A program made the position numbers and the translations under genes. Source: Chloroherpetonaceae bacterium (lineage in GTDB: Bacteria; Bacteroidota; Chlorobiia; Chlorobiales; Thermochlorobacteraceae). Taken from it: a stretch of 64,000 nucleotides of DNA. The notes below the pieces were generated by a model. That model worked only from the letters and a program-made list of their open reading frames with translations. It searched no databases and had not been told where the DNA came from. Below are positions 18,968 through 40,359 of the stretch, piece by piece. Location of the stretch: the NCBI GenBank assembly GCA_033763895.1, contig JANRJQ010000004.1:545001-609000 (forward strand), written 5' to 3'. Positions within the stretch are counted from its first letter, which is position 1. Each line of letters opens with the position of its first letter.

Positions 18968-19922
18968 ATACTTTTCCTGAATACCTTAAATCGACATACT
19001 CAAAAGCATTAATTCCCTTTTTGGTAATCACTGCTTTCCAGAATGTTTCAAAACTGACCAATACTTCCTGATGACGTTTCTCTTCCCTTTCATTCGTTAA
19101 TTTTTCACTTTCTCCCTGCGGCGTTTCTATGGCTCCACCTGAAATGTAGAATCGCGTATCACCATCGTTTGTAAGAGCAATAATTCGCTTTGGATTTGCA
19201 ACATTGATTTCAGCAATGACCATTTTTGCAAATTCACTTTTTTGTAGCTCGTTCAAGAAAAATAAGGCATCGCTTACCTCCGTACGATCTAACTTTCGCT
19301 TTCCTTCTTCTTTTACAATTTTCTGAAAGCCACTGAGTACCGGAATTTTTCCTGAGCCCTTCATTGCTTCGGAAGCAAAAGGCAGTAAACTTCCTTCTCT
19401 TGAAATCATAACCCATTTCCCGGAGACTGAGGCCATAGCAACAGGAATTTCTTCAACAATTTCAACTCGAATGGCATCCGGTAATTCTTTTGACACAATA
19501 GCCTTTGCAATAAATGGCTCAGATTGAAGCGTATCTGCTATTGCCGTAATTGAAACCTCTGAAAGCGACATTCCGCGCCACTTTTTGGTGAGCTTTACGA
19601 TTGATTCTTCAGCAACGGTTTGATTCCCTGTGACGATGAGCCTCTCAAATTTTGACTCACCAAGAAGCAACCGAGATGCGATAAAAGCGACAATGAGAAC
19701 AGAAACCAGCGCACCGATAACCCATAATTTTTTTCGTGAATCATTTGCATCAGGCTCCGTTATTCCTTCCCTTTCGGTTTCACTATTTTCAATATTCTCT
19801 TTCAGTTCCAATGAGGGTTTCTCATCGGTTGTGATATAGCTTTGAGCTGTGCTTGGTAAATCTGCCCGATTATTTTTTGGTTCAAACGGCCGATCTTCCC
19901 CTAAGTCAACATATCCTTTCAT
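18939..19922 (-). CDS. ftsQ: Cell division protein FtsQ
   Basis: A 327-residue bitopic protein. About 65 polar residues come first, then one membrane helix (about 68-88, LWVIGALVSVLIVAFIA), then a POTRA domain that starts FERLIVTGNQTV, and a beta domain. It is expected to link early and late division proteins at the septum. The cytoplasmic part is long for the family. Its ATG overlaps the murB stop by 4 bases, and its own end overlaps ftsA. Sequence identity to model FtsQ is low, so the call rests on position, topology and the POTRA segment. Confidence 0.85.
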   Translation of the reverse strand: MKGYVDLGEDRPFEPKNNRADLPSTAQSYITTDEKPSLELKENIENSETEREGITEPDANDSRKKLWVIGALVSVLIVAFIASRLLLGESKFERLIVTGNQTVAEESIVKLTKKWRGMSLSEVSITAIADTLQSEPFIAKAIVSKELPDAIRVEIVEEIPVAMASVSGKWVMISREGSLLPFASEAMKGSGKIPVLSGFQKIVKEEGKRKLDRTEVSDALFFLNELQKSEFAKMVIAEINVANPKRIIALTNDGDTRFYISGGAIETPQGESEKLTNEREEKRHQEVLVSFETFWKAVITKKGINAFEYVDLRYSGKVFAKASGYER

Positions 19923-20929: not shown

Positions 20930-20939
20930 TGATACTCCT

Positions 20940-22877: not shown

Positions 22878-22898
22878 TTTTTGCGTTTAAAGTGATTG

Positions 22899-24041
22899 CT
22901 ATGGTTTTTCATCCAATTCACCTTCTTTAATCAATTCATCCTTAAAAACTTGTGCGTAAGCAATGGCATGCTTTGCGATCTCATGAGCTGCATTGGGCTT
23001 TGCAAAAGTTTGAACAGCCTTTGACATTGCGCTGAGCTTTGAATCATTCTTCAAAAGCGATTCAATTTTTACAACGCTTTCTTCACTTGTGAGATTGGCG
23101 TCAACAATTAATTCTGCAGCGCCTTTTTCAGTGAAACTTTCTGCATTGTGAAATTGATGATTATTTGCAGCAAATGGATATGGAATCAAAATGGAGGGTT
23201 TTCCGATTCGTGCCAACTCCGCAAGCGTTGAAGCTCCTGCTCGGCATAGCACCAAATCTGCTGCTGAATAAGCGACATCCATTTCATCGACAAAGCGATT
23301 GACCCACAAATGTTGCCTCTCTCCAATCCTTTTTATTATCGATTCAAACTCCAATTTTCCGGTTTGCCAAATCAAATTATTTTCGTTTAGAAATCGATCA
23401 AGATTTGCTTCGATAAATCGATTTAGGCTTCTTGCACCAAGGCTTCCTCCAAAGGCAAATAATGTTGGCCTTTCGGGCAATAGTCCAATTTTTTTTCTCG
23501 CTTCTGATTTTTCAATCAACTTAAAATCACGCGTCGGATTCCCGCTGACAAAAACACCCTCACGATTTAAGAGCTTTTTTGAACTTTCAAATGACAGGTG
23601 AACTTCATCGGCATTACGTGCTAAAAATTTTGTTGAAATGCCAAGTGACGCATTCTGCTCTTGAATGATGGTTGGGATTCCCCACCTTTGTGCCGCATAA
23701 ACGACCGGTGCACTAACATAACCACCGGTTCCGATTACCACATCCGGCTCTTCTTGATCCAACAAACGATACGATTCATCAATACTTTGCTTTAAGCGAA
23801 ATGGAAACTTTAGATTTTCTAGAATATTATGAATTGAAAACCCGCGCTTAAATCCTGCAATTGAAATTAAATGAAGAGTAAACCCTTGTTTTGGAACCTC
23901 GGTTGCCTCAATCCCTCTCTCTGTACCGGCAAAATGAATTCGTGAATCAGGCTTCATTTTCAAGATTTCTCTTGCAATGGCGATTCCGGGAAAAAGGTGC
24001 CCCCCTGTTCCACCGCCTGCGAATAAGAACTTTAACGGCAT
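22899..24041 (-). CDS. murG: UDP-N-acetylglucosamine:lipid I transferase MurG
   Basis: A 380-residue GT-B glycosyltransferase that adds GlcNAc to lipid I on the cytoplasmic face of the inner membrane, giving lipid II. The N-terminal glycine loop GGGTGGHLFPGIAIA and the C-terminal donor-site region (RAGASTLAEL, IPYPFAANNHQ) are intact. Its ATG follows the ftsW stop codon with no gap, preceded by an AAGGAG site inside ftsW, so translation is coupled. It ends 21 bases before murC. Confidence 0.98.
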   Translation of the reverse strand: MPLKFLFAGGGTGGHLFPGIAIAREILKMKPDSRIHFAGTERGIEATEVPKQGFTLHLISIAGFKRGFSIHNILENLKFPFRLKQSIDESYRLLDQEEPDVVIGTGGYVSAPVVYAAQRWGIPTIIQEQNASLGISTKFLARNADEVHLSFESSKKLLNREGVFVSGNPTRDFKLIEKSEARKKIGLLPERPTLFAFGGSLGARSLNRFIEANLDRFLNENNLIWQTGKLEFESIIKRIGERQHLWVNRFVDEMDVAYSAADLVLCRAGASTLAELARIGKPSILIPYPFAANNHQFHNAESFTEKGAAELIVDANLTSEESVVKIESLLKNDSKLSAMSKAVQTFAKPNAAHEIAKHAIAYAQVFKDELIKEGELDEKP

Positions 24042-25337
24042 CTACGCTCCTTCTCCAGAGAATTTTTGAATTCGCGGATCCAAGTGCCCGATTTCGGTGT
24101 TCATTACGTTTGGAGAAGGCAACGCATTTAATCTCCGCTTTTTCTCTCGAGAAATACTAATCAACAGCCCCACGCCAAGGGCATTAAAGAGCGCCGCGCT
24201 ACCACCATAACTGATAAACGGCATAGGCAAGCCTGTATTTGGCAAGAGGTGGCAAGCCACCGCAGCATTTACAAAAGCATACATCCCAAGTGCAACCGTA
24301 ATACCGAAGGCTAAGTATTTTCCAAAATCATCGAGTGCATGACGCGCAATTGTAAACCCGCACCATACAATTCCCACAAAAAGGAGAAGCAGTGCCACAG
24401 CCCCCAAAAAGCCGTATTCTTCACCAACGACAGCAAAGATGAAATCATTATAGGATGCAGGTAAAAAAAGTTCTCTTTGTTTGCTCGCACCAATACCCAA
24501 TCCAAATAATCCGCCATTGCCTAATCCAATTAAGGCTTGCTCATTTTGGTAACTGGCTTCTCCGATAAATGAATCAATCCGATCTTTACGGTATCCGCCA
24601 AAAAGCACAAATAATGCCGCCGGAGGAAGTGCGCAAAGCCCTGTGATTGTTAAATGCTTTACACTTACACCACCGGCGAAAAGTATCATCATACCTATCG
24701 CTGCGAGTACTGCGGCTGTAGAAAAGTTTGGTGCCAAGGCAACAAGTACGACTGTAATCCCAATGACAATCATCATTGGCTGAAAACTCTTTTCAAGATC
24801 TTTTATGAACGATTGCTTTTCAGAAAGCAACATTGCGAGGTGAATGATTAATGCATATTTCGCAAGGTCAGAGGCTTGAAATCGGAATCTACCATAACCC
24901 AGCCAACGAGCAGCTCCTGTGATAACACCACCGGCTTTGAGGATTAATAATAAAGCCAGTAAAGCGATACTCACCATCCAAATAATTTTGCTGTATTTTT
25001 TTAGCAGTTTGTAATCAATCCCACCCACGAAAAAAATCACCCCAATGCCTAATATCACATAGATCAATTGACGCCATAAAAAGTATTCTGAATCTTGAAA
25101 TTTTCGAGCACCCCACCCTGCACCGCTGCTATAGACCATTAAGACACCGATGCACATCAAGATAATTGTTAGAAGAAGCAAGAATTTACCTGAGATGCTT
25201 TCTAGGGTTTTTTTCTGTAAAGGATCGAGCAATGCCCCGCCGAGGTTTCCGTTTGAGGTACTTTGCCCAACAGAAACTTGCGTATCTGAACTGCTTTTGC
25301 GTCCAATTCCTTTTTCAGAAAAAATGAAACCTTTCAC
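24042..25337 (-). CDS. ftsW: Lipid II polymerase / division protein FtsW (SEDS family)
   Basis: A 431-residue SEDS protein with about ten membrane helices after a 50-residue polar N-terminus. Family marks include VYSSGAGW after helix 1, RWLGYGRFRFQASDLAKYA, and the late LPNTGLPMPFISYGGSA segment. It polymerises glycan strands from lipid II with its partner FtsI. The start is GTG at 25337; an in-frame stop lies two codons upstream and no strong ribosome site is visible. Unlike its neighbours it is separated from the upstream gene (murD) by 159 bases that hold a GC-rich stem-loop. Confidence 0.96.
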   Translation of the reverse strand: MKGFIFSEKGIGRKSSSDTQVSVGQSTSNGNLGGALLDPLQKKTLESISGKFLLLLTIILMCIGVLMVYSSGAGWGARKFQDSEYFLWRQLIYVILGIGVIFFVGGIDYKLLKKYSKIIWMVSIALLALLLILKAGGVITGAARWLGYGRFRFQASDLAKYALIIHLAMLLSEKQSFIKDLEKSFQPMMIVIGITVVLVALAPNFSTAAVLAAIGMMILFAGGVSVKHLTITGLCALPPAALFVLFGGYRKDRIDSFIGEASYQNEQALIGLGNGGLFGLGIGASKQRELFLPASYNDFIFAVVGEEYGFLGAVALLLLFVGIVWCGFTIARHALDDFGKYLAFGITVALGMYAFVNAAVACHLLPNTGLPMPFISYGGSAALFNALGVGLLISISREKKRRLNALPSPNVMNTEIGHLDPRIQKFSGEGA

Positions 25338-25412
25338 TTCAAATTATTCAATAAAAATGCCGTTAATAAATCATTGTTCAAATTCATTATGCCTCATAAT
25401 TATTTTATATCC

Positions 25413-25453
25413 ACACCGGATGAAGCCCGAGAAGCCCCCGGGCTCCGCGGTGC
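25413..25453 (-). other. GC-rich stem-loop in the murD-ftsW gap (possible RNA element)
   Basis: An outer CACCG/CGGTG pairing and an inner AGCCCG/CGGGCT pairing with a 9-base loop form a nested stem in otherwise AT-rich spacer. No T-run follows on the minus strand, so it is not a standard terminator. TATAAAAT just downstream on the minus strand could be a -10 element for ftsW. A 25-codon frame starting MFFLYEP spans the stem but has no support as a gene. It may be a structured leader or processing site. Confidence 0.4.
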
Positions 25454-25496
25454 AGACTAAAAGGCTCATAGAGAAAGAACATAAAAAAACTCACAT

Positions 25497-26942
25497 TTAC
25501 GCTTTTACTGCTTCGGGTAAGGCGTTGACGATTCTTTTGAATATGCTTCCTCGCTCTTCAAAATTGGCGAACATATCAAAGCTTGCACAAGCAGGCGATA
25601 GAAGAACTGTATCACCTTCAGCCGCCTTTCTAGAAGAAATCAAAATGGCTTCATCAAAGGAATCGGCCGAAAAAACCTCGGTGATACCTGAAAATGCATT
25701 GATGATTTTCTCTTTTGATTCTCCGATAGCGACAATGGCTTTCACTTTTTGGCGTACCAAGTCAAATACTTTTGAATAATCGTTTCCCTTATCTCTACCT
25801 CCTGCAATTAAGACGATGCCATCTGGGATGGTATCTAAGGCGTACCACATTGCATTGACGGTCGTGGCTTTGGAATCATTCACAAAGCGAACTCCGCCAA
25901 CTTCTCTTACGAATTCGATGCGATGCTCAACACCTTCAAAGGTTTTGATACTTTCTCGAATCACTTCTTTGCGAACTTCTAGCGCGCGCGATGCAATCGC
26001 GGCTGCAAGCGAATTATAGGCGTTGTGCTTTCCGCGAAAATGAACACTATTCAAAATGACATCCTCCTTAATAATTGGTTCTTGAAATCCATTGATGCAA
26101 ACAGTGAGCTCACCGTCTTTTAGAAAACCGCAATCCGCATAGTCTTTTGAAAGATCCTTTTTCAGACTAAATGGAATTGCTTTTACTTTTAATTTTCCTT
26201 CTGCTCTTAACGCTGCGATATGTTGAGAAAGCGTTTCGCTATCCTCACTGTATATCAAAACATCGTTTTCATCTTGCGCCTGAAAGATTCTATACTTTGA
26301 AGCTGCATACTTTTGAAAGTTGTTATCGTACCGATCCAAATGATTCGGTGTTATATTTGTAATCACGCTTACCGCAGGTTTATACGAATAGCAATGATCC
26401 AATTGAAAACTGCTTGTTTCTACAACAGCAACATCTTTTTCAGTTAATTTTTCAGCATGATTTGAAAATGCTTCTCCGATATTGCCCAATGCCATTGCCT
26501 TAAAGCCCTTTTCATTTCCTGCATTTGAAAGGATTTTAGCCGTTAAGGTAGTTGTAGTGGTTTTTCCGTCTGTTCCGGTAATGGCCACAATTTTTGCTTT
26601 GCAAAAGCGGGCAGCCAATTCAATTTCGCTGATAATCCGACACCCCCGCAGTTCCAACTCTTTCACAATCGCCACACTTGAAGCAATTCCCGGACTGATC
26701 ACACATTTATCAAACTCTAACACCTGATTCGAGTGGCCGCCGAATTCCGTTGCTATACCAAAGTCATTGAGCTCTTCATTAAGACGCATTCCACCCCTTT
26801 TTTCATCACTGACGCCAATCAAGTCAAGAGGCTTTTTTTCTGAGAGAAGTACGGATGCGCCGTTTCGTGCAAGCAGTTTCGCCGCAGCGATTCCGCTCTT
26901 TTCAGCACCCAAAACCACCCAACGCTCGCCTCGAACCTTCAT
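25497..26942 (-). CDS. murD: UDP-N-acetylmuramoylalanine-D-glutamate ligase
   Basis: A 481-residue Mur ligase adding D-glutamate to UDP-MurNAc-L-Ala. It opens with a Rossmann-type VVLGAEKSGIAAAKLL segment, has the ATP loop GTDGKTTTT, the TPNHLDRYD motif and FVNDSKATTVNAM near the third domain, all standard for MurD. ATG start. It begins 4 bases after the mraY stop and ends 159 bases before ftsW. Confidence 0.97.
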   Translation of the reverse strand: MKVRGERWVVLGAEKSGIAAAKLLARNGASVLLSEKKPLDLIGVSDEKRGGMRLNEELNDFGIATEFGGHSNQVLEFDKCVISPGIASSVAIVKELELRGCRIISEIELAARFCKAKIVAITGTDGKTTTTTLTAKILSNAGNEKGFKAMALGNIGEAFSNHAEKLTEKDVAVVETSSFQLDHCYSYKPAVSVITNITPNHLDRYDNNFQKYAASKYRIFQAQDENDVLIYSEDSETLSQHIAALRAEGKLKVKAIPFSLKKDLSKDYADCGFLKDGELTVCINGFQEPIIKEDVILNSVHFRGKHNAYNSLAAAIASRALEVRKEVIRESIKTFEGVEHRIEFVREVGGVRFVNDSKATTVNAMWYALDTIPDGIVLIAGGRDKGNDYSKVFDLVRQKVKAIVAIGESKEKIINAFSGITEVFSADSFDEAILISSRKAAEGDTVLLSPACASFDMFANFEERGSIFKRIVNALPEAVKA

Positions 26943-26946
26943 TTAA

Positions 26947-28053
26947 TTAACGCAGTTTTAAGGTGATTAAGCTCGCCACCGCAAAAATGAGTGTGATAAT
27001 CCAAAAGCGAATCACAATTTTCTCTTCGTGCCAGCCCTCTTTTTGAAAGTGATGATGAAGGGGTGCCATTTTAAAAATTCTCCTTCCCTCACCATATCGA
27101 AGCCTTGTAAACTTGAACCAGTATCGCTGCAAAATCACCGAAAGGGTTTCAATCAAAAATATTCCGGCAAGTGACGGAAGAAGCAATTCCTTTTTAATAA
27201 GTAAAGCGATTACCGCGATAGCTCCGCCGATTGCAAGCGAACCTGTATCACCCATAAATACTTGCGCAGGATGGGCGTTAAACCATAAGAATCCTATGCA
27301 CGCTGCTGCTAATGCAAGCGCGAGAATCGTAACTTCGCCCGCACCTTCGATATAGACGATATTGAGATATTTCGAGAACTTGATATTCCCCGAGAGATAA
27401 GCGAAGCCTGCCAACGCAAGAAGAACAATCGCTGAGCATCCTGCTGCTAATCCATCTAAGCCGTCGGTCAGGTTAACCGCATTTGAGACTGCAGTAACGA
27501 TAAAAACACAAACCGGGACATACCACCAACCGTAATCAATGGTCACATTTTTTAATAGAGGCACGGTCGTGTTTGAGAGTAGCACCGAAAGCTTAGGATC
27601 AAGCAAGGTGTAGATTCCGATTCCCAAACCCAAAGCCACCTGTCCAATCAATTTTGATTTTTCAGAAAGGCCGCCCTTCACTTTTTTTATCACCTTGAGA
27701 TAGTCGTCATAAAATCCAACAGCGCCCATCCAGCCTACGGTAAGGAGAATAAGCCACGCAAATGGATCAGTGAGTTTTACCCAGCAAAGGGCTGAAATAA
27801 AGAGTGAGAGCAGAATAATGGTTCCCCCCATTGTTGGGATACCCACTTTCAGCCGGTGAGATTCCGGTGCTTCTTCTTTTATCGGTTCAATGACCTTTGA
27901 CTTTAGGTAAGCAATAACTCTTGGCCCAATAAACATCGCAACCAAAAGCGCAGTGACCGCCGCTGCCAACGCACGAAAGGTGATATAATTCACCACGCGC
28001 AGCCACGTGATATCGTAGGCTGTATGCAAGTAATAGAGTAGTGAATAAAGCAC
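26947..28053 (-). CDS. mraY: Phospho-N-acetylmuramoyl-pentapeptide transferase
   Basis: A 368-residue, ten-helix membrane enzyme that makes lipid I from UDP-MurNAc-pentapeptide and undecaprenyl phosphate. Family signatures seen are GTPTMGG-like [10 protein letters not shown], the active-site aspartates in FYDDYLKV and [10 protein letters not shown], and APLHHHFQ near the end. GTG start giving the usual [10 protein letters not shown]-terminus, 4 bases after murF. Confidence 0.98.
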
Positions 28054-28057
28054 TGGA

Positions 28058-29524
28058 CTAAGCGGTTTTTTGGTTTCGAATATTTTTTATAAAAAGATCT
28101 AAAATTTCTTCAACTTTCATTCCTCGTGACCCCTTAAATAGCAAGGCATCACCAGCTTTAACGGTGTTCGTTAAAGCTTCTGCCACTTCTGCCTTTGTTT
28201 TGAAGTGCATTTTGATTGCCACTTGTGCGGCATTATTTATTTCCTCGGCCCACGAGCCAATTGTAAAAAGCAAGTCAACTTTCGTTTCATTCAGAAAATC
28301 ACCGATGGCACGGTGTTCTGATTGAGAAAGATTTCCCAATTCAAGCATATCAGAAAGAATGGCAACCTTTTTACCCGAGTGCTGTATATCGCAGAGTGCA
28401 GTAATTCCGGCGCGCATCGATTCCGGGTTGGCGTTGTATGTGTCGTTGATGATCGTTATGCCACTTTCTTGAAAAACCACCATTCTCTTCAGTGCGGGCG
28501 CCATTTCAAATTGCTCAAGCGACCGAGTAATACTTTCTGGAGAAACACCAAAGTTTAATCCAACGGCTGCTGCAGAAAGTGCATTGAAAATGTTATGCCT
28601 GCCGGTCATCTTTAATTGAATCTCAAATGATTTTTCACCGGTGGATATTCTCATTTTCACAGCACCTGTTTCGTTGAGTCCAATTTCTTCTGCAATCACA
28701 TCTGCTTTCAAGCCACCTCGCTTCATTATCCAATCCGGCGTTTTTACTGCCATTAAAATTTTATGGCGCACCATTTCCGACTTCTCTAAAACCAAATCGT
28801 CGTTTGTATTGATAAAGGCACTTCCTTCAGTTTCATTCAAATACTCAAAAAGCTCGGCCTCTGCATTGGCTACATTTTCGATTGAACCGAAATACTCAAT
28901 GTGTGCTTTCCCGATATTGGTTATCAGCCCGTGAGTTGGCGCTGCAATGTTGCAGAGTTCGGTCATTTCATCGTAGTGGTTCATTCCCATTTCGATGACT
29001 GCAATCTCTGTCTCTTTGCGAAGCCCCAAGAGTGTCATTGGCACGCCGATGTGATTGTTCAAATTCCCTTCGGTAGAAAGTGTATGGCAATAAGCACGAA
29101 GCACGGTGGCCGTCATCTCTTTGGTTGTTGTTTTGCCGCTATTTCCGCCAAGTGCAACAACCGGAATTGAAAACTTTTTTCGGTATTGCTTCGCCAAGTT
29201 TTGTAATGTTTCCAGCGGGTCAGATGTAACAAGCAATGGCATCAACGGAAGTTCTTCTTGATGAGTAGCCCAATATTGATGACTTACGATTGCAAGTGAG
29301 GCTTTCCTTTCAGCCACCGTATTGAGAAAAGCATGACCATCGGTATTCTCTCCTTTCAAGGCAACAAAAATTTCACCACCGATCACTTTTCTTGAGTCAA
29401 TGACGACTTTTGGCTGCTCCAATCCTATGCTCTCTTTGCCGGAGGGCATCACCAGATTTCCGAGCTGCTGAAGGTCGGCCTCATTAATCAAGATTGTTTC
29501 TATTGTGCTTTCTTTTGAACTCAC
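28058..29524 (-). CDS. murF: UDP-N-acetylmuramoyl-tripeptide-D-alanyl-D-alanine ligase
   Basis: A 488-residue Mur ligase adding D-Ala-D-Ala to the UDP-MurNAc-tripeptide. The N-terminal uridine-binding domain includes [22 protein letters not shown]. The ATP loop is [11 protein letters not shown], and [11 protein letters not shown] plus a [10 protein letters not shown] segment are MurF-specific. GTG start. murE stops 29 bases upstream. Confidence 0.97.
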
Positions 29525-29553
29525 GCTGCTATAGACTTTACCCTAAGAATTTT

Positions 29554-31128
29554 TTAACGATCTAATTTTCGATATGCCTTTTCAATTTCTTCACGATCAT
29601 CAAAGTGAAGTTTTTCCTTGCCGAGAATTTGATAAGTTTCATGACCCTTTCCGGCAACCAAGAGCACGCTTTTGGAATCCAACAGTGAAACACCTAATTC
29701 AATTGCCTTTTCACGACTTGCGATTCGCATGATCTGCTTTTTTCCTTCCAATCCGGCTTGGATGTCGTCTAAGATCATCTCCGGATCTTCACTCCTCGGA
29801 TTATCCGAAGTCAGAATTACGATGTCTGCATAGGACTCTGCAATTTTTGCCATCAAAGGTCGTTTCCCTTTGTCACGATCTCCACCACAACCAAAAATCA
29901 CGATGATTCTTTCATTTGACTCGCGATTTTCGACTATCGTCTTCAAAACATTTTCCAAGGCATCGGGTGTATGAGCATAATCGACAAATGCCAAATTGCC
30001 TTTTGGGCTTATCACCTTTTCCATTCGCCCTCGAACCGCTTGGCATGACTCAATGCCCTCCAAGATTGTATTCGGTTCCAAACCCATTGCCAGCCCTGCG
30101 CAAAAAGCTGCCGCGGCATTTTCAACATTAAATTGACCAACTTGCGGCAAATGAAATTTCAGAACCGCGCCGCTAAAATGAACGCTGATTTCACTACCCA
30201 ATAGTGATGCCTTTTCAATCATAAACCGTACATCTGCAATAGCAGCAAGGCTTGCTTTCTTTTCGCTTTCATTTTTTGAATTCACCAAATACCGCAAAAC
30301 TTTTGCTTTTGTATCGCGAATCATCATTTCCCCGTATGGACTTGCAATGTTTGTGATCGCAGTTGCGCTTGAAGTCAATCCATCGAAGAGAATTTTTTTT
30401 GCTTCGGCATACAGAGCCATTGTTCCGTGAAAATCCAAATGATCTTGTGTCAGATTGGTGAAAATGGCCACCTCAAAATTGATTCCTTCGGTTCGCTTCA
30501 AATACAATGCGTGAGACGAAACTTCCATCACCACCGCTTTGCACATTTCTTTCTCCATCACTTCAAAAAAATGGTGCAGTTCTGGTGCTTCCGGCGTTGT
30601 GCGATCGGCCTCAATTCTCATTTCGCCAATTTGATAAGAGACCGTACCCAGCAACCCGGCTTTGATGTGCGAATGCTCAAGCACCTGATGAATGAGTGTG
30701 GCCGTGGTCGTTTTTCCATTTGTTCCTGTTACGCCTACCGCTCTCAGCCGATCAATGCTCGCCCCGTAAAAACTTTTCGCAAGTGTTGCTAAAGCGCTTC
30801 TTGAATCGTCGGTTTGAATGTAGAGTGCGTCAGAAGGCCATTCAAGATTCTCGGGCCTTTCTTCACCGAAAACGACCCTCATCCCATTTCTTATGGCAGA
30901 AGCAATAAATTTGTGCCCATCTGATTTATAGCCTTTGATTGCCACAAACAGCGCATTTTCTTTCGCATCGTTTGAGTTATAAACCAAAGCTGAAATTGTT
31001 TCAGAGCCCCATTTCTTCAGCAATTCTTCAAGTGGAATTTTATTCGGCACTTGATTCAAAATTTCAAAGAACTCACAAGTCAATTCTTTTTGAAGCAGCG
31101 AGCGAAGCAATTCTTCAAGTGTTCTCAT
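29554..31128 (-). CDS. murE: UDP-N-acetylmuramoyl-L-alanyl-D-glutamate-2,6-diaminopimelate ligase
   Basis: A 524-residue Mur ligase with the ATP loop GTNGKTTTA and the third-residue selectivity motif DNPRSEDP at about residue 441. DNPR is the meso-diaminopimelate signature (lysine enzymes differ here), so the cell wall should be DAP-type. The N-terminal domain is about 30 residues longer than typical. ATG start, 17 bases after the ftsI stop. Confidence 0.97.
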   Translation of the reverse strand: MRTLEELLRSLLQKELTCEFFEILNQVPNKIPLEELLKKWGSETISALVYNSNDAKENALFVAIKGYKSDGHKFIASAIRNGMRVVFGEERPENLEWPSDALYIQTDDSRSALATLAKSFYGASIDRLRAVGVTGTNGKTTTATLIHQVLEHSHIKAGLLGTVSYQIGEMRIEADRTTPEAPELHHFFEVMEKEMCKAVVMEVSSHALYLKRTEGINFEVAIFTNLTQDHLDFHGTMALYAEAKKILFDGLTSSATAITNIASPYGEMMIRDTKAKVLRYLVNSKNESEKKASLAAIADVRFMIEKASLLGSEISVHFSGAVLKFHLPQVGQFNVENAAAAFCAGLAMGLEPNTILEGIESCQAVRGRMEKVISPKGNLAFVDYAHTPDALENVLKTIVENRESNERIIVIFGCGGDRDKGKRPLMAKIAESYADIVILTSDNPRSEDPEMILDDIQAGLEGKKQIMRIASREKAIELGVSLLDSKSVLLVAGKGHETYQILGKEKLHFDDREEIEKAYRKLDR

Positions 31129-31145: not shown

Positions 31146-33323
31146 TTAATTGCTCATAACCAGCGTGATTGAAGCGCCTTTTGCTATTGTCTGTCCACTT
31201 CGAATCGATTGCGAAACCACTTTTCCATCGCCACCTGCAACTTGTACCCTCAATCCTAATTCTTCAGCTGCTGCAATGGCACGCGAGGCTCGAATACCCA
31301 AAAGTTCCGGCATTTTTGATGCTGCCGTTTCTCCTGAGAGATCAAGCGGAATTTTAGTCCAAATAGCGACTCTTTTACCCGGAGCAATCCCTTGCTTTGA
31401 AACAATCCCTGCATCTTCGCCGGAGCGAGAGAAATCAAGGCTATGCGAGCGCAATATTTTTTTTGCTTCTGTTATTGTTAACCCTCGAATATTTGGAACG
31501 ACAACAGTTCTTGCTGTATCCAAGAAGTATTGTTCTTTTGAAGCTTCGGGTTTCATTTCTGAAGCAATTCGGTCGCGGTATTCTTCGCCTGTTGTACTGA
31601 GCATTCGACTGGCAATTTTCGAAAAAACCGGTGCGGCTGCCATACTGCCGTAGTATCCGTTGGTTGGGTTTATCATCATGACAAGCACAGCAAATTCCGG
31701 CCTATCTTGAGGAAAGTAACCCACAAAGGAAGCCACATATCTTCCTGCTTTATAGCTGCCATTGGTTAATTGCTGTGCAGTTCCGGTCTTTCCACCAATC
31801 GGCAATCCTTGAACTCTCGCCGCCATCCCTGTTCCGCTATCAACCACTGCTTTGAAGTATTCACGCACCTTGCGCGCGGTTTCTTTTTCCATTGCGCGAG
31901 TCACTTTTTTTGGTTCCGCTCGAAAAGTCTGACTCCCCGCATTGTCGCTGATTTCTTTAATGATTATTGGCTTCATTCGCTCGCCATCATTGGCTAAAGT
32001 GGCGTAAGAAGAAAGAATTTGTAGCGGCGAAACAAGAACCTCATAACCGTGGGCCATCCACGGCAGGGTAATGCCAGTCCAATTTTTCACCGGTTTTACG
32101 GTGCCTGAGATTTCGCCCAAAAGTCCGGACTCCGTTTTATCGCCGTAGCCAAGCTTTTTGGTCATTTCATAAAATTTCTCGGTACCTACTTTCATTGCCA
32201 CTTTGGCTGAAACGATATTGCTGGACTTCATGATCGCCTCGCGGAGTGTGACATTGCCAACCTTTTCGTGATCTGAGATGATTCTATCTTTGACGCGCCA
32301 TTTCCCACCTTCGCCACTGTATTTATCGTAAGGCGTGATTATTCCTTCTTCGGTTGCGGCACTAAGTGCTACAATCTTAAATGTTGAGCCCGGTTCAAAA
32401 ACATCGGTGACCGCACGATTCCGAATATTTTCAGGGGTATAAGTTTCCTTCAGATTTGCGTCGAAATCAGGCTCATTGGCAATTGCCAGAATTTCGCCGG
32501 TTCGTACATCCATCACGATGCCAATTGCAGCAAATGAACCCGAAGCATCCATCCCTCGTTTTAATTCATCTTCAACCAACGCTTGGATATCCGAATCAAT
32601 CGTTAGGGTGATTGAACCTCCGTTTTCAGGTTCGTGATGCGCCTCCCCAACTGCCGGAAATGCTCTGCCCGTTGCCGTTCGCTGCATGAGCATCATGCCA
32701 TCTTTCCCAGATAGTACCTCTTGATACTGCTTTTCAATCCCACTGATGCCGTTTCCATCTGCATCTAAAAATCCAATGACTTGCGAGGCGAGATTTTCGT
32801 AACGGCGGCTTTGTTCTTTAATCTCCAAAACTCCATAGTACTTTGCCTCTAAAATCACATTTGCTCGTGAGATTGGCACTTGCCGCTCAAGCCATACAAA
32901 TCGATTTTTTTCTTTCAATTTTTTCAAATAGAAGTCTTTCGGTTTCTGAAATACTTCTGAAAAAAGCGAGGCAACGTCATCTGGATTTTCAATCACGGCA
33001 GGGTCCGCAGCAAATGAAATCGCGGTAACGGTTGTTGCAAGTCTTCTGCCATTCCGGTCGAGAATATCGCCGCGACTGGCTTTCACGGCAAGTTTATACT
33101 CGTATTGCTTTTTCGCACGCTTTTGATACTCGCCTGAAGCAACCACTTGGACATAGCCTAAACGGAAAACAACCATCGCCGCTAAAAGAAAAAGACCGCC
33201 AATGACCAAGGTCATGCGGATCTTCTCTTCTCGATTTTCGCTTTCACTTTTTCGGTTTATTGAAGACTCCACTTCATTTCCCGAACTCTGTGAGGCTTTT
33301 ATGTCCTTTTCTTTTTCGCCCAC
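31146..33323 (-). CDS. ftsI: Septal peptidoglycan transpeptidase FtsI (PBP3/PBP2x-like) with two PASTA domains
   Basis: A class B penicillin-binding protein of 725 residues. A polar N-terminus and one membrane helix (about 37-56) come first, then the dimerisation domain (SRGDILDRNGRRLA). The transpeptidase has STFK (Ser313, Lys316), SSN (367-369) and KTG (512-514). Two PASTA repeats follow at about 606-660 and 668-724. PASTA-bearing FtsI is uncommon in proteobacteria but occurs in Gram-positives and Bacteroidota-type bacteria, where the repeats may bind peptidoglycan. GTG start, 12 bases after ftsL. It is expected to crosslink glycan made by FtsW at the septum. Confidence 0.96.
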   Translation of the reverse strand: MGEKEKDIKASQSSGNEVESSINRKSESENREEKIRMTLVIGGLFLLAAMVVFRLGYVQVVASGEYQKRAKKQYEYKLAVKASRGDILDRNGRRLATTVTAISFAADPAVIENPDDVASLFSEVFQKPKDFYLKKLKEKNRFVWLERQVPISRANVILEAKYYGVLEIKEQSRRYENLASQVIGFLDADGNGISGIEKQYQEVLSGKDGMMLMQRTATGRAFPAVGEAHHEPENGGSITLTIDSDIQALVEDELKRGMDASGSFAAIGIVMDVRTGEILAIANEPDFDANLKETYTPENIRNRAVTDVFEPGSTFKIVALSAATEEGIITPYDKYSGEGGKWRVKDRIISDHEKVGNVTLREAIMKSSNIVSAKVAMKVGTEKFYEMTKKLGYGDKTESGLLGEISGTVKPVKNWTGITLPWMAHGYEVLVSPLQILSSYATLANDGERMKPIIIKEISDNAGSQTFRAEPKKVTRAMEKETARKVREYFKAVVDSGTGMAARVQGLPIGGKTGTAQQLTNGSYKAGRYVASFVGYFPQDRPEFAVLVMMINPTNGYYGSMAAAPVFSKIASRMLSTTGEEYRDRIASEMKPEASKEQYFLDTARTVVVPNIRGLTITEAKKILRSHSLDFSRSGEDAGIVSKQGIAPGKRVAIWTKIPLDLSGETAASKMPELLGIRASRAIAAAEELGLRVQVAGGDGKVVSQSIRSGQTIAKGASITLVMSN

Positions 33324-33335: not shown

Positions 33336-33908
33336 TTACTCCCTTGAAATGACAACCGGAGGATTGATATTGTATCGCAATCCTAACTTTTGATAGGCTT
33401 CCGACATAATTCGCTCACCCCGCTCTGCTTGCTTAATCTTGCTTTCAAGCTCTACATTCAGACTTTTTGCTTTTTCTAAATTTTCTTTTAATTCTTCAGA
33501 CTCTCCCGAAAGCCGATTGATTGAAATAACATTGTAGATATAGAGCCCAATACAAATGGCAGAGAAAATCACAATGACAAATGTTTGAAGTGTAAGCACA
33601 GATTCAATTCTCTCTTGAGCTCTTTGACTCATCCTTTTTTGAGCCACCGGCTTTTCGCTGTTTCGCTCGAGCTCATTCGGTTCTTTTGAAATGCGGCTAT
33701 TTACCGATTCTGAAATTCTATTTTTTGTGACAAAACTTTCCTGAAAAACGGTCTTTTGGATTTCACTTTCAGGGATTGCCTCATCACTTAATTCTTTTCC
33801 ACGAACCTTCATGCACTCTTCAACTGAGCGCTCGATGGTGCTTAACGCCTCTGTGTAAGAGACCTTTGGCGAGTAGCTTCCGAATATTTTCGATTCTTCT
33901 TTTGTCAT
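33336..33908 (-). CDS. ftsL: FtsL-like division protein
   Basis: A 190-residue bitopic protein: a polar, charged cytoplasmic N-terminus of about 100 residues, one membrane helix (TFVIVIFSAICIGLYIYNV), then a coiled coil rich in Glu/Lys/Leu and a short extracytoplasmic tail ending in INPPVVISRE. The topology and the place between rsmH and ftsI are those of FtsL, which with a DivIC/FtsB partner activates FtsWI. Sequence alone is not diagnostic. ATG at 33908, with AAAGAG 5 bases upstream, is preferred over an upstream TTG at 33953. The cytoplasmic part is long for the family. Confidence 0.75.
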   Translation of the reverse strand: MTKEESKIFGSYSPKVSYTEALSTIERSVEECMKVRGKELSDEAIPESEIQKTVFQESFVTKNRISESVNSRISKEPNELERNSEKPVAQKRMSQRAQERIESVLTLQTFVIVIFSAICIGLYIYNVISINRLSGESEELKENLEKAKSLNVELESKIKQAERGERIMSEAYQKLGLRYNINPPVVISRE

Positions 33909-33990
33909 CTTTATCTCTTTTTCGTTCTCATCAAAATCTCTTTGAATTCTCAATTCAATTGATAAGGCAACGCGATTTCCTTATCCACAT

Positions 33991-34938
33991 TCAAATTTTT
34001 TCTGCAATTCTCAGCTTTGCACTTCTTGATCTTGAATTGCGCGCGATTTCCTCATCACTTGGAACCAAGGGCTTTTTTGTGATAAGTTTTAAGCTTGCTT
34101 TTCGAATCGGCTCTCGAATCGGCAATCTTTTTTCACCCCAATCATCCGTACTTAAATCTTTCATGAAGTTTTTCACAATCCGATCTTCAAGCGAGTGGTA
34201 ACTGATGACGCCAATTCTTCCTCCCGGCTTTAAGAGTGCAATTGATTCCTTTAAGGTTTTTTGCAGTGCTTCAAGCTCATCGTTCACTTCTATTCGCAAG
34301 GCTTGAAATACTCTTGCCATCGCTTTGGTTTGCTCAGCCGGTTTATACTCCGGATAAAATGACTTCACGATTCCAGCCAGAGCGCCTGTCGTTTCGATTG
34401 GCGCAATCCTTCTTGCTTCTAAAATCCGTTTTGCAATCTGCCGTGATTTTGGTTCTTCGCCGTATCGCCAAAAAATCTCAGCAAGTTCCTTTTCGCTGTA
34501 GGTTGCAATGATATCACTTGCCCGATTTTCAGAGCCCACAGACATCCGCATGTCGAGTTGGTGATCGCTTCGAAATGAAAATCCCCTTTCTCCACGATCA
34601 AATTGATAAAACGAAACGCCAAGATCTAAAAGGATTCCTTGCACACCCGTTTCAATCGCATCTTTCGGCAAGGCAACTTGCAACTCTGAAAAATTTGTTT
34701 CAATGCTTTCAAAGAACGGTAAGTATCGCTTAAGTCTTTGGGTGGCAAAGGCAATGGCGTCACAGTCTTGATCAATCCCAAAAATTTTTGAATCTGAAAG
34801 CCACGCGTTGTTTTCAAGCTTTTGTAAAATTCCTTCCGTGTGACCGCCCCCGCCCAATGTTCCATCGATATAAATGCCGGGTCTCGTTACCAGACCTTCA
34901 AGGCACTCATTCAGCAATGCCGGAATATGATAGGTCAT
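33991..34938 (-). CDS. rsmH: 16S rRNA (cytosine-1402-N4)-methyltransferase
   Basis: A 315-residue MraW/RsmH methyltransferase that modifies C1402 in the ribosomal P site. The N-terminus HIPALLNECLEGL, the SAM-binding YIDGTLGGGGHTEGIL and the C-terminal GGRIGVISYHSLEDRIVKNF are all family hallmarks. ATG start. It is second in the dcw cluster, 41 bases after mraZ. Confidence 0.98.
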   Translation of the reverse strand: MTYHIPALLNECLEGLVTRPGIYIDGTLGGGGHTEGILQKLENNAWLSDSKIFGIDQDCDAIAFATQRLKRYLPFFESIETNFSELQVALPKDAIETGVQGILLDLGVSFYQFDRGERGFSFRSDHQLDMRMSVGSENRASDIIATYSEKELAEIFWRYGEEPKSRQIAKRILEARRIAPIETTGALAGIVKSFYPEYKPAEQTKAMARVFQALRIEVNDELEALQKTLKESIALLKPGGRIGVISYHSLEDRIVKNFMKDLSTDDWGEKRLPIREPIRKASLKLITKKPLVPSDEEIARNSRSRSAKLRIAEKI

Positions 34939-34979: not shown

Positions 34980-35447
34980 TTATTGTAAGTGGCGAGATGT
35001 CAAGGTTTCCAACATCTCTTGATTTTCACTCACCGCCCGTTGCAATTTTTCCGGCTTCCAGATACTAAACTTGTTTCCTCCCCCAACAAGCACAACCTCA
35101 TTGGCATCCTTACTGACCCCCAAGTGCTCTTGTAAATCTTTGGTGATGACAATTCGGTGAGTTACCGAATCTTTCACCGCCGTGCGAGAAAGTTCCGCCT
35201 CTTCGAGGCTTTGATAGAGAAGCGTCTTTAGCAGTCGCTCCTCGCTTTTTAAGTCATCAAGTTTGGCTAAGGCTCTTTCTTTTTCTTCCCAAGCTTTGGG
35301 TTCATAAAGGTCAAGAGCACCTTCCGGTGTTTTCATCACAAAAAGCGACGCCGTGTCAGCCGCAATTTTCTTTGCGAATTTTGAAGGAATCACCAATCGC
35401 CCTTTGTCATCCAAAGAGTGTATGGATTTGCCCACAAAACCTGACAT
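34980..35447 (-). CDS. mraZ: Transcriptional regulator MraZ
   Basis: A 155-residue protein made of two AbrB-like SpoVT halves, the first with SIHSLDDKGRLVIPSKF and the second with THRIVITKDLQEHLGV. MraZ binds repeats upstream of its own gene and controls the dcw operon. It is the first gene of the cluster here, and a phased repeat array lies 90-140 bases upstream, which supports self-regulation. ATG start. Confidence 0.97.
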   Translation of the reverse strand: MSGFVGKSIHSLDDKGRLVIPSKFAKKIAADTASLFVMKTPEGALDLYEPKAWEEKERALAKLDDLKSEERLLKTLLYQSLEEAELSRTAVKDSVTHRIVITKDLQEHLGVSKDANEVVLVGGGNKFSIWKPEKLQRAVSENQEMLETLTSRHLQ

Positions 35448-35535
35448 ACGCTTTTCTTCTTTTAAGACAGTGAAAATTTCTAGGGAGACCTCAGTGTCGT
35501 TCTTAAGATTATCATCCGATTGTTCAAAATCTCAC

Positions 35536-35585
35536 AAACCATTTTCTACCACTTCACACCACTTACTCCCGCTTTCTCCCAAAAT
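35536..35585 (-). promoter_or_regulatory. MraZ-box-like array, five 10-bp-phased repeats
   Basis: Read on the minus strand, five consecutive 10-base units carry GG at the same phase: TTTTGGGAG, AAAGCGGGAG, TAAGTGGTGT, GAAGTGGTAG and AAAATGGTTT. The pattern fits known MraZ operators: repeated TGGGN with 5-base spacers in E. coli and AAAGTG(T/G)N3 repeats in Mycoplasma. It ends about 90 bases before the mraZ ATG. No convincing -35/-10 pair was identified, though GATAAT near 35507-35512 is a possible -10. Confidence 0.75.
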
Positions 35586-35853
35586 AGCAAAAAATATTTG
35601 AGTTTTGCCAACAAAAATCCCACTTTACTTAAAAAAATTTTTTACTCTGTGGCTTCGCGCAAAAATCATTAAAATCAGTTGCGCGAATTCTCAAATCTTG
35701 ATGAAATGAGAAAGAAATTCTTAATGAAATTTTTCTTCTGAAAAATCGGAGATACTCTTGATGAGCTCGATTAATGAAGGTATGAGTGAGATCGTGAGGA
35801 AATGAATCAGTGAAAAACCTTGAAAGAATTTGAAGGATTCTTTATTAAGTAAA
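35586..35853. other. AT-rich spacer between the lamin-tail gene and mraZ regulatory region
   Basis: Together with the MraZ-box array and the mraZ leader this is a 406-base gap without a gene. The stretch is strongly AT-rich, has no open frame of note, and shows no clear terminator for the minus-strand lamin-tail gene that would read away from it. Nothing else was recognised. Confidence 0.5.
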
Positions 35854-38800
35854 TCAATTCAGCGGCCTTGCCACAACCACCGCTTTTTTGAGAGAGGTCA
35901 CCACGGCGGAATTGGCACCGAGTGCTTCTAAAAAGATGATATAGATGCCCATTCGCAACCGCTCGCGATTTTCTCCAAAGCCATCCCAGATAATACTTCC
36001 CTCTGAGGCCGTTGGCTCTGAATTGGCAAGCGTTCTTACAAGCCTTCCACGAACATCATATATCTTTATTCGAATTCGATTGACATTATCAGGAAGTTTA
36101 TAAGAAATGACTGCATTGTCCTCTCGTCCATCGCCATCGGGAGAAAATGGATTTGGTTTTACCTCAATTTTCCCTTGAGTTTCAATTGTAATTGTTTCCG
36201 CAAAAGCCGCATTGCGGCGAGCAGGCGTACCGCCAAATTCGCGGTTAGAGGAACTTGTCCAATTTCTTGAATCATTTGAGCCAAGATGAGGATTGATTCG
36301 TTCAAGCGCAATTCCCGAGGTTGAGGAATAAAATGAATTATGCCACTCGGGTGAGTAACGAACGGAATCGATAATGCCATCGGTGTTATCCACAAGCTGT
36401 ACAAGTCCACCGGTCGTTGAATTGGAGAAGGTACTTCGTGAAGTGATGAAAAAAAGTTTTGCAGTAGAGTCGCTCTTTAGATAAGAATAGAAAAGCACTA
36501 AACGCGTTGAATCACGGAGAAGTAACCGATCTGGAGAAATAACCGCATAATCACCGGGCTTTAATGCATAGTTCGCAAGTGAATCGGTTGCAAATTCATA
36601 CTTCTCAAATTCCCCGCGTTCATTGGGTAAATTGGTTAAATACCATCCACGGAGATCGATGGTGCTATCGCTTCTGTTAAAAAGTTCAACATAGTCGGGT
36701 TGGTCTTGTTTGAAATCGGTCGAGCTTTGAATCGGTTGATATAAAATTTCATTTACCACAATGGCGTTTCTCGGTGTACCTGTGAGTAGCAAGGTTTCAG
36801 CGCGGTTATTCAAAAGGTCGTTATCACCAGTAGCGGTAAGTATGATGATAAATCGCCGTGAATTCCGCTGCGCGGCTTGAGCAGTGAAGGAACGAACCGT
36901 AGAATCATTGGGTATCAGGTTCGAAGACAAAGTGAACGAAGCAGAAGAAATTTCCTCTTCAGGCTCAACAAGTGTGTTGGAATTCAAATCTTCATATACT
37001 TTCACGGTTGCGCCTGCCCCAAAGGCATTTAAGCCGCGATTGATGATGGTATAACCGATATTGATGTTCGCTCCCGGTGGCGTGCTGAATCGCACAGCAA
37101 AACGCAGGGCAAGATCAAATGGCTTTGGCGTTACGGTGTTTTCTCTGCCGGGCGAACCTCGCAGTGTTAATGAAGGAATATAATTTGAAGGTGAATCATT
37201 GCGTGTCATCATAATTTTTTCAAGCGACTTTCCCTTCTGTTTTGAATCACCCACATATGCCATATGTGCAATCAATTCACCTTGAGCCGTAATGATGGAA
37301 ATCGAATCTCCATCGTTCGAAAAATTTAGCGAACCGGAAGACCTTGCCAGCACAGCGTTTGCAGGAATAATGTCTTTATAAAACTGTGGCGAAGTAAAAT
37401 AATTGGGTGCAAAGATGAGCGCAAATTGTTTTGGTCCAATCAAAACATTGGCGTTGCTGCCGAGCGAATCGGTGATGACTAAATTTACTGAACCGCCAAT
37501 TCGCCAATTGCGAAGATTCAGTGTGTCAGTTTCACTTCGGTTATAGACTTCAAGATATTCATCAAAGGTGGTGCTGTTCGATTCTGCCGGCGGGTCATAC
37601 ATCACCTCCGATATGATAAGATTGGTATCGACAAAGTTCGGCTCAAAGACGAGCGCCGTGGTTTTCAGGGTATCATTAAGCCGCGCTTCGTCAGCGCTGA
37701 GCGTTGCTGCAACAATAAATCGCTTGAGCCCCGGAATTGAAGTTGAAAACGAAAAATCGAGATTGAGCGAATCAAGGGAAGCCAAATTCGAGGAAAGTGT
37801 ACGCGTATCGAGAAGCTCACTTAAAGCAGCAACTTCATTAGAATCACGGTCGTCATAGACTTCCACCCGAACGCTCGTTGCGGCTTGCTGTCCGTAATTC
37901 CGAACATTAGCGCGCAATGTTCCTTGCGTACCCGTTCGAATATTGGTTGATGGAAAAACAGTAAGGGAATTGATTCCAATATCAAATGCTTTTGGGGTAA
38001 TGGTATTCACCGAACCGGGCGTTCCGCCTGAAATCCCAGCTCTTCCCCAGTTTTGGAGCGTGTTTTCGCGTGTGAGCAGCACCTTTTCAAGTGAAAAGCC
38101 TTTTGTCAAATTTCCGGAGTAAGAATAGGTTTGAATGGTATCGCCAATCGATGTAATCAATCGAATAGTCGTTCCGCCATTAGTCAGACTGAGCGACGCT
38201 GAGGCGCCGAGAACCAAAACCCCACTTGGCACCTTGCTATTGTAAAATCGTGGGAAAGTGCTGAGATACGAAGAAGGCACAATCAAGGCATAACTTCGCG
38301 GCGCGAGCCGTGTTCTGCCGTCTCCGGTATCGGCTAAGGAAATTACCGAGCCTGTGCCAACACGAAGCCGCCACCCGGAAAAATCAATCGTATCAGTAGC
38401 CGACGAATTATATACCTCAATAAATTCATGCGCCGTTGAATTCGCATCGGCCGGTGGGTCGGGCATCACTTCTGATAAAATGATGTTTGTATCGGCATCA
38501 TTCGGAACAAAGGTATTAAATTGAGCGCGTGCCGTATCGTTTGTGCGTGATTCATCGCCTAAGAAAGAAACAGCTGCGACCAGTCGTCGAAGCCCACCTT
38601 TATTGGCTAAGAGTTCAATTCCCGTCACATTGAAGGAATCGGCAGGAGCGATGTCTGTCGAAGCAAATGTTTGACTGAAGAAGCGCTCGGGTTGAGATAC
38701 CACATTGTTTGAATCCGCATCTTCAAAAATTTCTAACCGATAGCCTGTGGCCGTTTGAGTTCCCAAGTTTTTAATCACGGTTCTTAACACAACCGTTGTT

Positions 38801-40359
38801 CCTAAGCGCACCGAACTTCCGCTGGGCTGAAAAGTGGAAATAGTGAGATCCTTTTCCTTTGGGGTATTGGTATTGATCACACCCGGAGAACCTCCGCTCA
38901 CCAACGCTCTCGCCCAATTGACCGAAGTGTTTTCGCGGGTAAGCTCTTTTTTTTCTTGAGAGAATCCTTTGGTTTGAGAACCATAAGTGTAGGTCTGAAT
39001 TGTATCATTGGTGCTTGTAATCAAACGAATGGTTGTTCCGCCATTGGTAAGGCTTAAACCGCCCGATGATCTTACAACCAATGTTCCCGAAGGGAGCAAT
39101 GCATTATAAATCCGCTCGTTGGCTTGGTACGTGCTTGGCACAATCAGTGCATAAGAGCGTGGCCGTAGCCACACACGCCCATCGCTTGTATCAGAAATCG
39201 TAACCGTTGAATTCGTCCCTGCCCGAAAACGATATAAAGTGAGATTGAGCGAATCAGTTGAGCTTGTGTTAAACACTTCCACAAATTCATTGGCGGTGGT
39301 GTTTCCCGAGGGAGGGTCTGCCATCACTTCAGTAAAAATCAAAGCAGTATCAAGCCCGGCGGACTGTAAAACGGTGATGTTAATTTTAGCGGTATCGTTG
39401 GTGCGAACTTCATCGCCCGATTGAGTAACGATGGTAACAAATCGCCGTAGTCCACTCACCGACAATCGAACCCAATTTGAGAATAAGAGAGAATCTCCTG
39501 AATTAAGTGTGGAAGAATTCGTTTGAGAAAAAAGTCTTTCATTCGAAACAAGCGTCGCATTGGAATCGCGGTCTTCATAAATTTCGTATAAAAATCCGGC
39601 AGAAGCTGCTGTTCCTAAATTCCGAACCCGTGCATCCAAACGCACACTATCTCCTTGAGTGATTGAAACTGATGGGAAAGCTGATAGTGATGTGATTGTT
39701 AAATCATTCTCTCTTGGCGAAACTGAATTGAAGGCTCCCGGCGTCCCGCCTTGTTGCAATCCCCGTTGCCAATTTGAAGCATCATTAATGCGTGTGAGAT
39801 TAATTTTCTCAAAAGCAAACCCTTTTGTTGAATTGCCATAAAAGTAGTTTTGAACCGTATCGTTTGAGGGAGAAATCAATCTTGCCAATGTTCCTGAACC
39901 TGAATTTGAGAGATCAAGCGATGTGTTCGATGTTCCGGAAGCACGAATAAATAAAGTTCCAGATGGTACCAAAGCATCATAAAAACGAGGCGATGTGGTG
40001 GTATAAGAAAATGGCACAATGAGCGCGAAGCGGCGAGGCGGGATTTTGACTGAATTACCAAGCGTATCCGTTAAAGTTCTTGCTGTACCTGAAAGTCCGC
40101 CGCGAAGTCGCCATCCAGTAAGCGATACCGAATCCGAAAAACTCAAATTAAAAATTTCAACATACTCGTGAGCCGTCGTACTTGCTCCCGTTACCGGATC
40201 GGGCATGACCTCGGTTAAAATGAGAAGCGAATCCGGAATTCCTTGACTTAAGAGGGGTTGCGACGGGATAACCCAAAATAGCAGTGCCATTGTGAGTGAA
40301 ATAAACAACTTGGAAGAGCGAGAGGCGACTGTTTTTTTATTCGGAATATTCGAAGCCAT
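35854..40359 (-). CDS. Secreted lamin-tail-domain / CARDB repeat protein with FlgD-type C-terminus
   Basis: A 1501-residue exported protein. The N-terminal signal peptide has its hydrophobic core at about 18-38. Five lamin-tail domains start near residues 45, 338, 625, 913 and 1200, each opening with a variant of LILTEVMPDPP and later EFVEVYN and GWRLRxG. Between them lie four CARDB-like Ig domains (NLGTxxA, EIYEDRDSN, RRFVxxVT). The repeat unit is about 287 residues. The last 100 residues (NPFSPDGDG, IKIYDVRGRLVRTL, WDGFGENRERL) are a FlgD/gliding-type Ig domain often found on secreted proteins of this phylum group. It is probably cell-surface or released; function unknown. ATG start. Confidence 0.85.
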   Translation of the reverse strand: MASNIPNKKTVASRSSKLFISLTMALLFWVIPSQPLLSQGIPDSLLILTEVMPDPVTGASTTAHEYVEIFNLSFSDSVSLTGWRLRGGLSGTARTLTDTLGNSVKIPPRRFALIVPFSYTTTSPRFYDALVPSGTLFIRASGTSNTSLDLSNSGSGTLARLISPSNDTVQNYFYGNSTKGFAFEKINLTRINDASNWQRGLQQGGTPGAFNSVSPRENDLTITSLSAFPSVSITQGDSVRLDARVRNLGTAASAGFLYEIYEDRDSNATLVSNERLFSQTNSSTLNSGDSLLFSNWVRLSVSGLRRFVTIVTQSGDEVRTNDTAKINITVLQSAGLDTALIFTEVMADPPSGNTTANEFVEVFNTSSTDSLNLTLYRFRAGTNSTVTISDTSDGRVWLRPRSYALIVPSTYQANERIYNALLPSGTLVVRSSGGLSLTNGGTTIRLITSTNDTIQTYTYGSQTKGFSQEKKELTRENTSVNWARALVSGGSPGVINTNTPKEKDLTISTFQPSGSSVRLGTTVVLRTVIKNLGTQTATGYRLEIFEDADSNNVVSQPERFFSQTFASTDIAPADSFNVTGIELLANKGGLRRLVAAVSFLGDESRTNDTARAQFNTFVPNDADTNIILSEVMPDPPADANSTAHEFIEVYNSSATDTIDFSGWRLRVGTGSVISLADTGDGRTRLAPRSYALIVPSSYLSTFPRFYNSKVPSGVLVLGASASLSLTNGGTTIRLITSIGDTIQTYSYSGNLTKGFSLEKVLLTRENTLQNWGRAGISGGTPGSVNTITPKAFDIGINSLTVFPSTNIRTGTQGTLRANVRNYGQQAATSVRVEVYDDRDSNEVAALSELLDTRTLSSNLASLDSLNLDFSFSTSIPGLKRFIVAATLSADEARLNDTLKTTALVFEPNFVDTNLIISEVMYDPPAESNSTTFDEYLEVYNRSETDTLNLRNWRIGGSVNLVITDSLGSNANVLIGPKQFALIFAPNYFTSPQFYKDIIPANAVLARSSGSLNFSNDGDSISIITAQGELIAHMAYVGDSKQKGKSLEKIMMTRNDSPSNYIPSLTLRGSPGRENTVTPKPFDLALRFAVRFSTPPGANINIGYTIINRGLNAFGAGATVKVYEDLNSNTLVEPEEEISSASFTLSSNLIPNDSTVRSFTAQAAQRNSRRFIIILTATGDNDLLNNRAETLLLTGTPRNAIVVNEILYQPIQSSTDFKQDQPDYVELFNRSDSTIDLRGWYLTNLPNERGEFEKYEFATDSLANYALKPGDYAVISPDRLLLRDSTRLVLFYSYLKSDSTAKLFFITSRSTFSNSTTGGLVQLVDNTDGIIDSVRYSPEWHNSFYSSTSGIALERINPHLGSNDSRNWTSSSNREFGGTPARRNAAFAETITIETQGKIEVKPNPFSPDGDGREDNAVISYKLPDNVNRIRIKIYDVRGRLVRTLANSEPTASEGSIIWDGFGENRERLRMGIYIIFLEALGANSAVVTSLKKAVVVARPLN

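Follow-up and report, generated by a model that had tools for sequence, protein, structure and literature searches.

The mraZ locus and the phased array

The dcw cluster considered here lies on the minus strand of a 64-kb stretch of DNA, referred to below as the window. It is headed by mraZ and runs in the order mraZ-rsmH-ftsL-ftsI...ftsZ. The gene following mraZ is rsmH (mraW; 33991–34938, minus strand), which matches Pfam PF01795 at 351.6 bits. It is followed by an ftsL-like gene (33336–33953, minus strand), whose match to PF19579 (23.4 bits) is under the cut-off of 24.6, and by an ftsI-like gene (31146–33323, minus strand) encoding a penicillin-binding protein with Transpeptidase and PBP_dimer domains and two PASTA stretches, all identified with Pfam. 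The remaining genes (16107–31128, minus strand) are murE, murF, mraY, murD, ftsW, murG, a fused murC, murB, ftsQ, ftsA and ftsZ, annotated on the basis of Pfam domains except for mraY, which was recognised from its translation. The individual Mur ligases are presumptive assignments, made from gene order.

The fused MurC-like ligase (645 residues, 20940–22877, minus strand) carries an in-frame, C-terminal, retropepsin-like Asp_protease_2 domain (residues 518–619, 34.7 bits). Its last 156 residues match short separate ORFs in nine of 20 related genomes, namely all eight from the same family together with G009. In five of the genomes (G001–G004 and G007) the separate protease ORF is on the mraZ contig, 13–14 kb from mraZ. 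This is a putative dcw-associated aspartyl protease, here fused to MurC.

The mraZ gene itself (34980–35447, minus strand) encodes a protein of 155 residues, and is the only PF02381 locus in the genome (51 bits, against a cut-off of 23). The C-terminal half of the protein is divergent. The D-x-K-x-R motif of the N-terminal half is kept, as LDDKGR at residues 12–17, whereas the D-x-x-x-R motif of the C-terminal half is broken: residue 87 is serine, where all 156 other aligned homologues have aspartate. A seven-residue insertion, VKDSVTH (residues 91–97), precedes the invariant Arg98 and is unique among 157 MraZ sequences. In addition, residue 25 is alanine, against arginine or lysine in 152 of the 156 homologues. 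These motifs are the putative DNA-contacting elements of the protein, as in the AbrB-like fold.

The divergence is also seen in the profile scores. The protein falls under the curated cut-offs of all of the NCBIfam MraZ models, reaching 116 bits against 162 for NF001476 and 63.5 against 98.35 for TIGR00242. Five relatives from the order that were scanned score higher on these two best models (149–207 and 83–107, respectively), and a member of the same taxonomic family (L007) also misses both cut-offs, more narrowly. On the basis of the domain score, the gene order and the overall alignment, the protein is nevertheless still a MraZ, though a divergent one. A single-sequence AlphaFold2 prediction of it (mean pLDDT 50.5, pTM 0.30) was too poor to use. 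Solved structures of MraZ include entries 9qlg, 9qlr and 9sx6.

Upstream of mraZ there is an intergenic region of 406 bp, bounded on its far side by the 3′ end of an ORF of 1501 residues on the same strand (35854–40359). The large protein that it encodes contains five lamin-tail (LTD) stretches, together with CARDB, FlgD_ig and CHU_C type IX secretion signal domains.

The array lies within this region, and mraZ is the first gene after it; 87 bp separate the end of the array from the mraZ start codon. The initial annotation had described five minus-strand units of 10 bases with GG in the same place, the middle ones reading AAGTGG, at 35585–35536. The five units are indeed present, with GG starting at 35580, 35570, 35560, 35550 and 35540 (units 1 to 5) in exact 10-bp phase, and units 3 and 4 do read AAGTGG. 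The position was out by one base: in the AARTGG register the units occupy 35584–35535.

The five units are not equally good, as judged by the weight matrix described below. Unit 1 (TTTTGGGAGA, 35575–35584, minus strand) has the core TTGG and scores 4.5 bits, and unit 2 (AAGCGGGAGT, 35565–35574, minus strand) has the core GCGG and scores 3.8 bits. The RTGG core is limited to units 3 (AAGTGGTGTG, 35555–35564, minus strand, 7.5 bits), 4 (AAGTGGTAGA, 35545–35554, minus strand, 13.8 bits) and 5 (AAATGGTTTG, 35535–35544, minus strand, 4.1 bits). Unit 4 is the best single match in the window, where 13.8 bits is reached at one position only out of 127,982. An isolated unit-like sequence, AAGTGGGATT (35616–35625, minus strand, 6.6 bits), lies 41 bp upstream of unit 1, and its GG is displaced by one base from the phase of the array (35621 rather than 35620).

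A weak candidate for the dcw promoter was identified by eye at 35581–35611 (minus strand). It consists of TTGGCA and TATTTT separated by 19 bp, with TGC before TATTTT. Unit 1 abuts the TATTTT; the distance from this hexamer to the GG is 6 bp for unit 1 and 16 bp for unit 2. With respect to the array, this candidate is placed much like the promoter of nine loci in or near the family, where the first GG is preceded by a TTGA-- box at 38 bp (counted by eye) and by TAAATT at 14 bp. By this comparison, unit 2 would correspond approximately to the position of the first unit in the relatives, and unit 1 would be an addition abutting the −10 box. A promoter scan did not report the TTGGCA-19-TATTTT candidate; it reported TTGTGA-18-GATAAT (35537–35508), just downstream of the array. 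If this second promoter is used, the array would be located upstream of or at the −35 box.

Chance controls and conservation in relatives

Chance does not account for the array. When the 406-bp intergenic region was shuffled 20,000 times with its dinucleotides preserved, and scored on both strands, an in-phase GG run of five occurred 0 times, and the longest run was four (in six shuffles). At periods of 6–15 other than 10, the intergenic region has at most two GG in phase. On both strands of the whole window there is one run of at least five, which is this array, and one run of four (63200, plus strand).

The weight matrix was derived from 174 units of relatives from the order. Its training left out our own locus (L003), L060, which has a stretch of N upstream of mraZ, L064 and E. 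coli. It ranks the array first in the entire window for any number of units from one to five, and none of 3,000 shuffles matched the observed score for two, three, four or five units.

The comparison within the order covered 60 mraZ loci and their upstream DNA from 59 other genomes, one of which has two loci. MraZ was found by protein search in 60 of the 61 genomes of the order, our own included. It had been proposed that the repeats be sought upstream of mraZ in related genomes, and they were present at every one of the 60 loci, none of which is from the same genus. At a matrix threshold of 3.5, 48 loci have three in-phase AARTGG(T/G) units and 12 have two. More weight is given to the counts that do not use the matrix, because it was trained on these same loci. 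At period 10, 46/60 loci have at least three in-phase TGG; at each of periods 7–9 and 11–13, 0/60 do.

The wider sample of the phylum gave a similar result. MraZ is present in 137 of 148 genomes; 101 of the loci lie outside the order, and 94 of these were examined. At least three in-phase TGG were found in 49/94 at period 10, and in 0/94 at periods 7–9 and 11–13. Eighteen of the 94 loci have a single unit only, using the order-trained matrix at 3.5; the array is therefore common but not universal in the phylum, or else the motif drifts. At period 11, runs of at least four GG (not TGG) occur in 17/94 phylum loci, and bare GG counts are thus noisier than TGG counts.

A control for in-phase TGG chains using reversed sequences was also run, and was discarded, since the reverse of GGT is TGG. 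The contamination is evident in its chains of three or more, which appeared in 1/61 order loci and 16/94 phylum loci, and also in our own locus. It was replaced by the scans at other periods.

On the basis of its distribution, the array appears to be a conserved MraZ operator of the lineage. A search of the genome contigs of named relatives produced a single distant match, at 28% identity.

It is worth adding that some genomes have no PF02381 match. G009, which is near-complete, is one of them, and so, among the matches listed, are all eight near-complete genomes of family f19 (G082, G106, G126, G137, G140, G146, G163 and G169). These absences suggest that MraZ has been lost across the lineage or has diverged strongly.

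The motif, known MraZ sites and a proposed mechanism

MraZ is a widespread regulator controlling cell-division genes, and E. coli K-12 is a known target species. Mycoplasmas retain a shorter version of the cluster. The consensus of the relatives from the order is AARTGG(G/T)RAA (AARTGGKRAA in the matrix). The E. coli repeats CAGTGGGAAA, TTGTGGGGCA, AAGTGGGAAT and AAGGGGTGAG fit the same frame, as does AAAGTGKN3. The units had been described initially as a blend of the E. coli and mycoplasma motifs. This description is unneeded, because the AGTGGG-type repeats of E. coli and the mycoplasma repeats fit one frame in the same register; the matrix of the relatives covers both, and the two site descriptions are thus one motif.

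The dcw operator of E. coli resembles the present array in having in-phase AGTGGG-type repeats with a 10-bp period just upstream of mraZ. It differs in that its units are G-rich (GTGGG), whereas units 3–5 here read TGGT. It also has four scoring units rather than five, and ends close to the start codon rather than 87 bp ahead of it.

The MraZ of Burkholderia cenocepacia is described as binding, in gel shifts, a fragment with four 7-nt repeats separated by 3-nt spacers, which lie past the −10 box and cover the transcription start (PMC7761207). As described there, the repeats and spacers give the same 10-bp period. The site has four repeats, whereas here there are five by a loose count, and the promoter is a candidate only. 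The Mollicutes site, as quoted in PMC5282649, is (AAAGTGKN3)3, and shares its core and period with the array: units 3 and 4 (AAGTGG) fit AAAGTGK at all but the first of its seven bases. The quoted consensus, unlike our array, holds three copies. The closest resemblance is to the arrays of the relatives from the order (L004–L063), which share motif, phase, orientation and gene. They have two or three units rather than five, and their MraZ proteins have the normal aspartate in the C-terminal half.

The locus thus has a (R)TGG(G/T) core at a 10-bp period, at least three repeats, and a conserved place at the head of the dcw cluster. The initial annotation had read the array as a MraZ operator. Gene order, conserved motif and 10-bp phase all speak strongly for this reading, as does the location of the repeats ahead of mraZ in 60/60 order loci. 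We therefore predict that the array is very probably an autoregulatory MraZ operator at the dcw promoter. This adds another order of the phylum to the documented range of the MraZ operator, with clear comparative support.

By analogy with other species, a mechanism can be proposed. The 10-bp phase places all of the units on one face of the helix, and each AARTGG unit may be touched by one MraZ subunit, either of a single ring-shaped oligomer or of adjoining oligomers. With the candidate promoter, the array would begin just past the −10 box or overlap it; MraZ bound there would stand in the way of RNA polymerase, and would thereby impose negative feedback on the genes from mraZ to ftsZ. The weaker units 1 and 2 would prolong the common core of three units on its promoter side, probably adding avidity.

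In Mycoplasma genitalium, loss of mraZ is reported to raise the transcripts of mraW, MG_223 and ftsZ (PMC8475190). An activating role of MraZ in mycoplasmas has been described as well (PMC7761207), and the sign of the regulation proposed here is therefore inferred.

The genome was searched for further arrays with two patterns. RTGGN6RTGGN6RTGG has three matches in the 3.55-Mb genome, one being the array and the other two lying inside ORFs. ARTGGKN4ARTGGK has 11 matches: two belong to the array, and the other nine lie within ORFs. The same pattern backwards has seven. No second promoter array was found with these two patterns, and the regulon may therefore be this operon alone.

The number of units and the divergent MraZ

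The number of units depends on how they are counted. The matrix was applied to 156 mraZ loci, made up of 60 from the order, 94 from the phylum, E. coli and our own. At a threshold of 3.8, our own locus has three units, because unit 2 is just under 3.8, and the counts were rerun at 3.5, 2.0, 0 and −3. At 3.5, no locus but our own has five units, and four are found in E. coli K-12 and in one phylum locus, L118. At 2.0, L076 also has five units, and at 0 so do 6/94 phylum loci. Counting bare in-phase GG, 10/94 phylum loci have five. All ten of these belong to family f18, and their extra units are mostly in the promoter spacer, directly behind a TTGACA-like box. The extra units 1 and 2 of our own locus are likewise on the promoter side.

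It had been suggested that five copies exceed the usual three or so. This holds in that our locus has the sole five-unit array at 3.5 and the order has two or three units; it does not hold more widely, given the four repeats published for B. cenocepacia, the four of E. coli K-12 and the ten phylum loci with five GG. As the unit count shifts with the threshold, and units 1 and 2 are without RTGG, five is best regarded as a high value on a continuous scale and not as a new kind of array. Neither five-unit arrays nor a variant C-terminal half of MraZ were found in the parts of the literature covered by a non-exhaustive search.

These considerations bear on a more restricted reading, that the operator is a three-unit core only (units 3–5 or 2–4), with the other in-phase GGs being chance or promoter sequence. 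We regard this as a real but lesser possibility, roughly one chance in three; it restricts the best explanation and does not contradict it. The RTGG core is absent from units 1 and 2, which score only 4.5 and 3.8 bits, and the relatives from the order carry three or two units. Four in-phase GGs are seen in 4/61 order loci (L064 included), and with GG making up about 3–5% of dinucleotides a chance extension by one unit would not be rare. Nevertheless, just 0.36% of the positions in the window score at least 3.8, yet two in-phase neighbours do so, and arrays that run on in phase on the promoter side are seen again in another family (the 10/94 loci with five GG). The full array remains our preferred operator. 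It is real, well conserved, ordinary in kind and somewhat long, and lies beside an atypical MraZ. As judged from the sequence comparisons, it would be an ordinary MraZ switch whose units slightly outnumber those of its closest relatives and are weaker.

A more speculative proposal is that the array became long and degenerate in step with the divergence of MraZ, such that a damaged or remade DNA-contact loop in the C-terminal half, making weaker contacts, is offset by more units, or reads a shifted motif. Our own locus has the sole five-unit array (at 3.5) of 156, and our own MraZ is the sole one of 157 that lacks the aspartate and has the insertion. However, this is a single case, in which two unique features coincide in one genome; L076 has five units at 2.0 and yet has the normal aspartate at that column; and the structural model is unusable (pLDDT 50.5). 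It is therefore unlikely, though worth stating, that a regulator with a remade C-terminal loop, having lost an invariant aspartate and gained seven residues, is paired here with an operator that grew from three units to five weaker ones. If true, this would be a natural example of a regulator and a phased array changing together, and would test how many ring subunits must contact DNA. The linked pair would also inform on the contribution of the C-terminal half.

That the array is the site of another factor, or a by-product of DNA composition, is very improbable: regulators besides MraZ do use short direct repeats, and the HsdC site is noted to resemble that of MraZ (PMC5282649), but the conservation is linked to mraZ and to period 10, and composition-preserving shuffles never reach the array.

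One locus of the order, L036 (genome G012), has an in-phase pair of GGs at each of two places roughly 100 bp apart ahead of mraZ, which may form a double operator.
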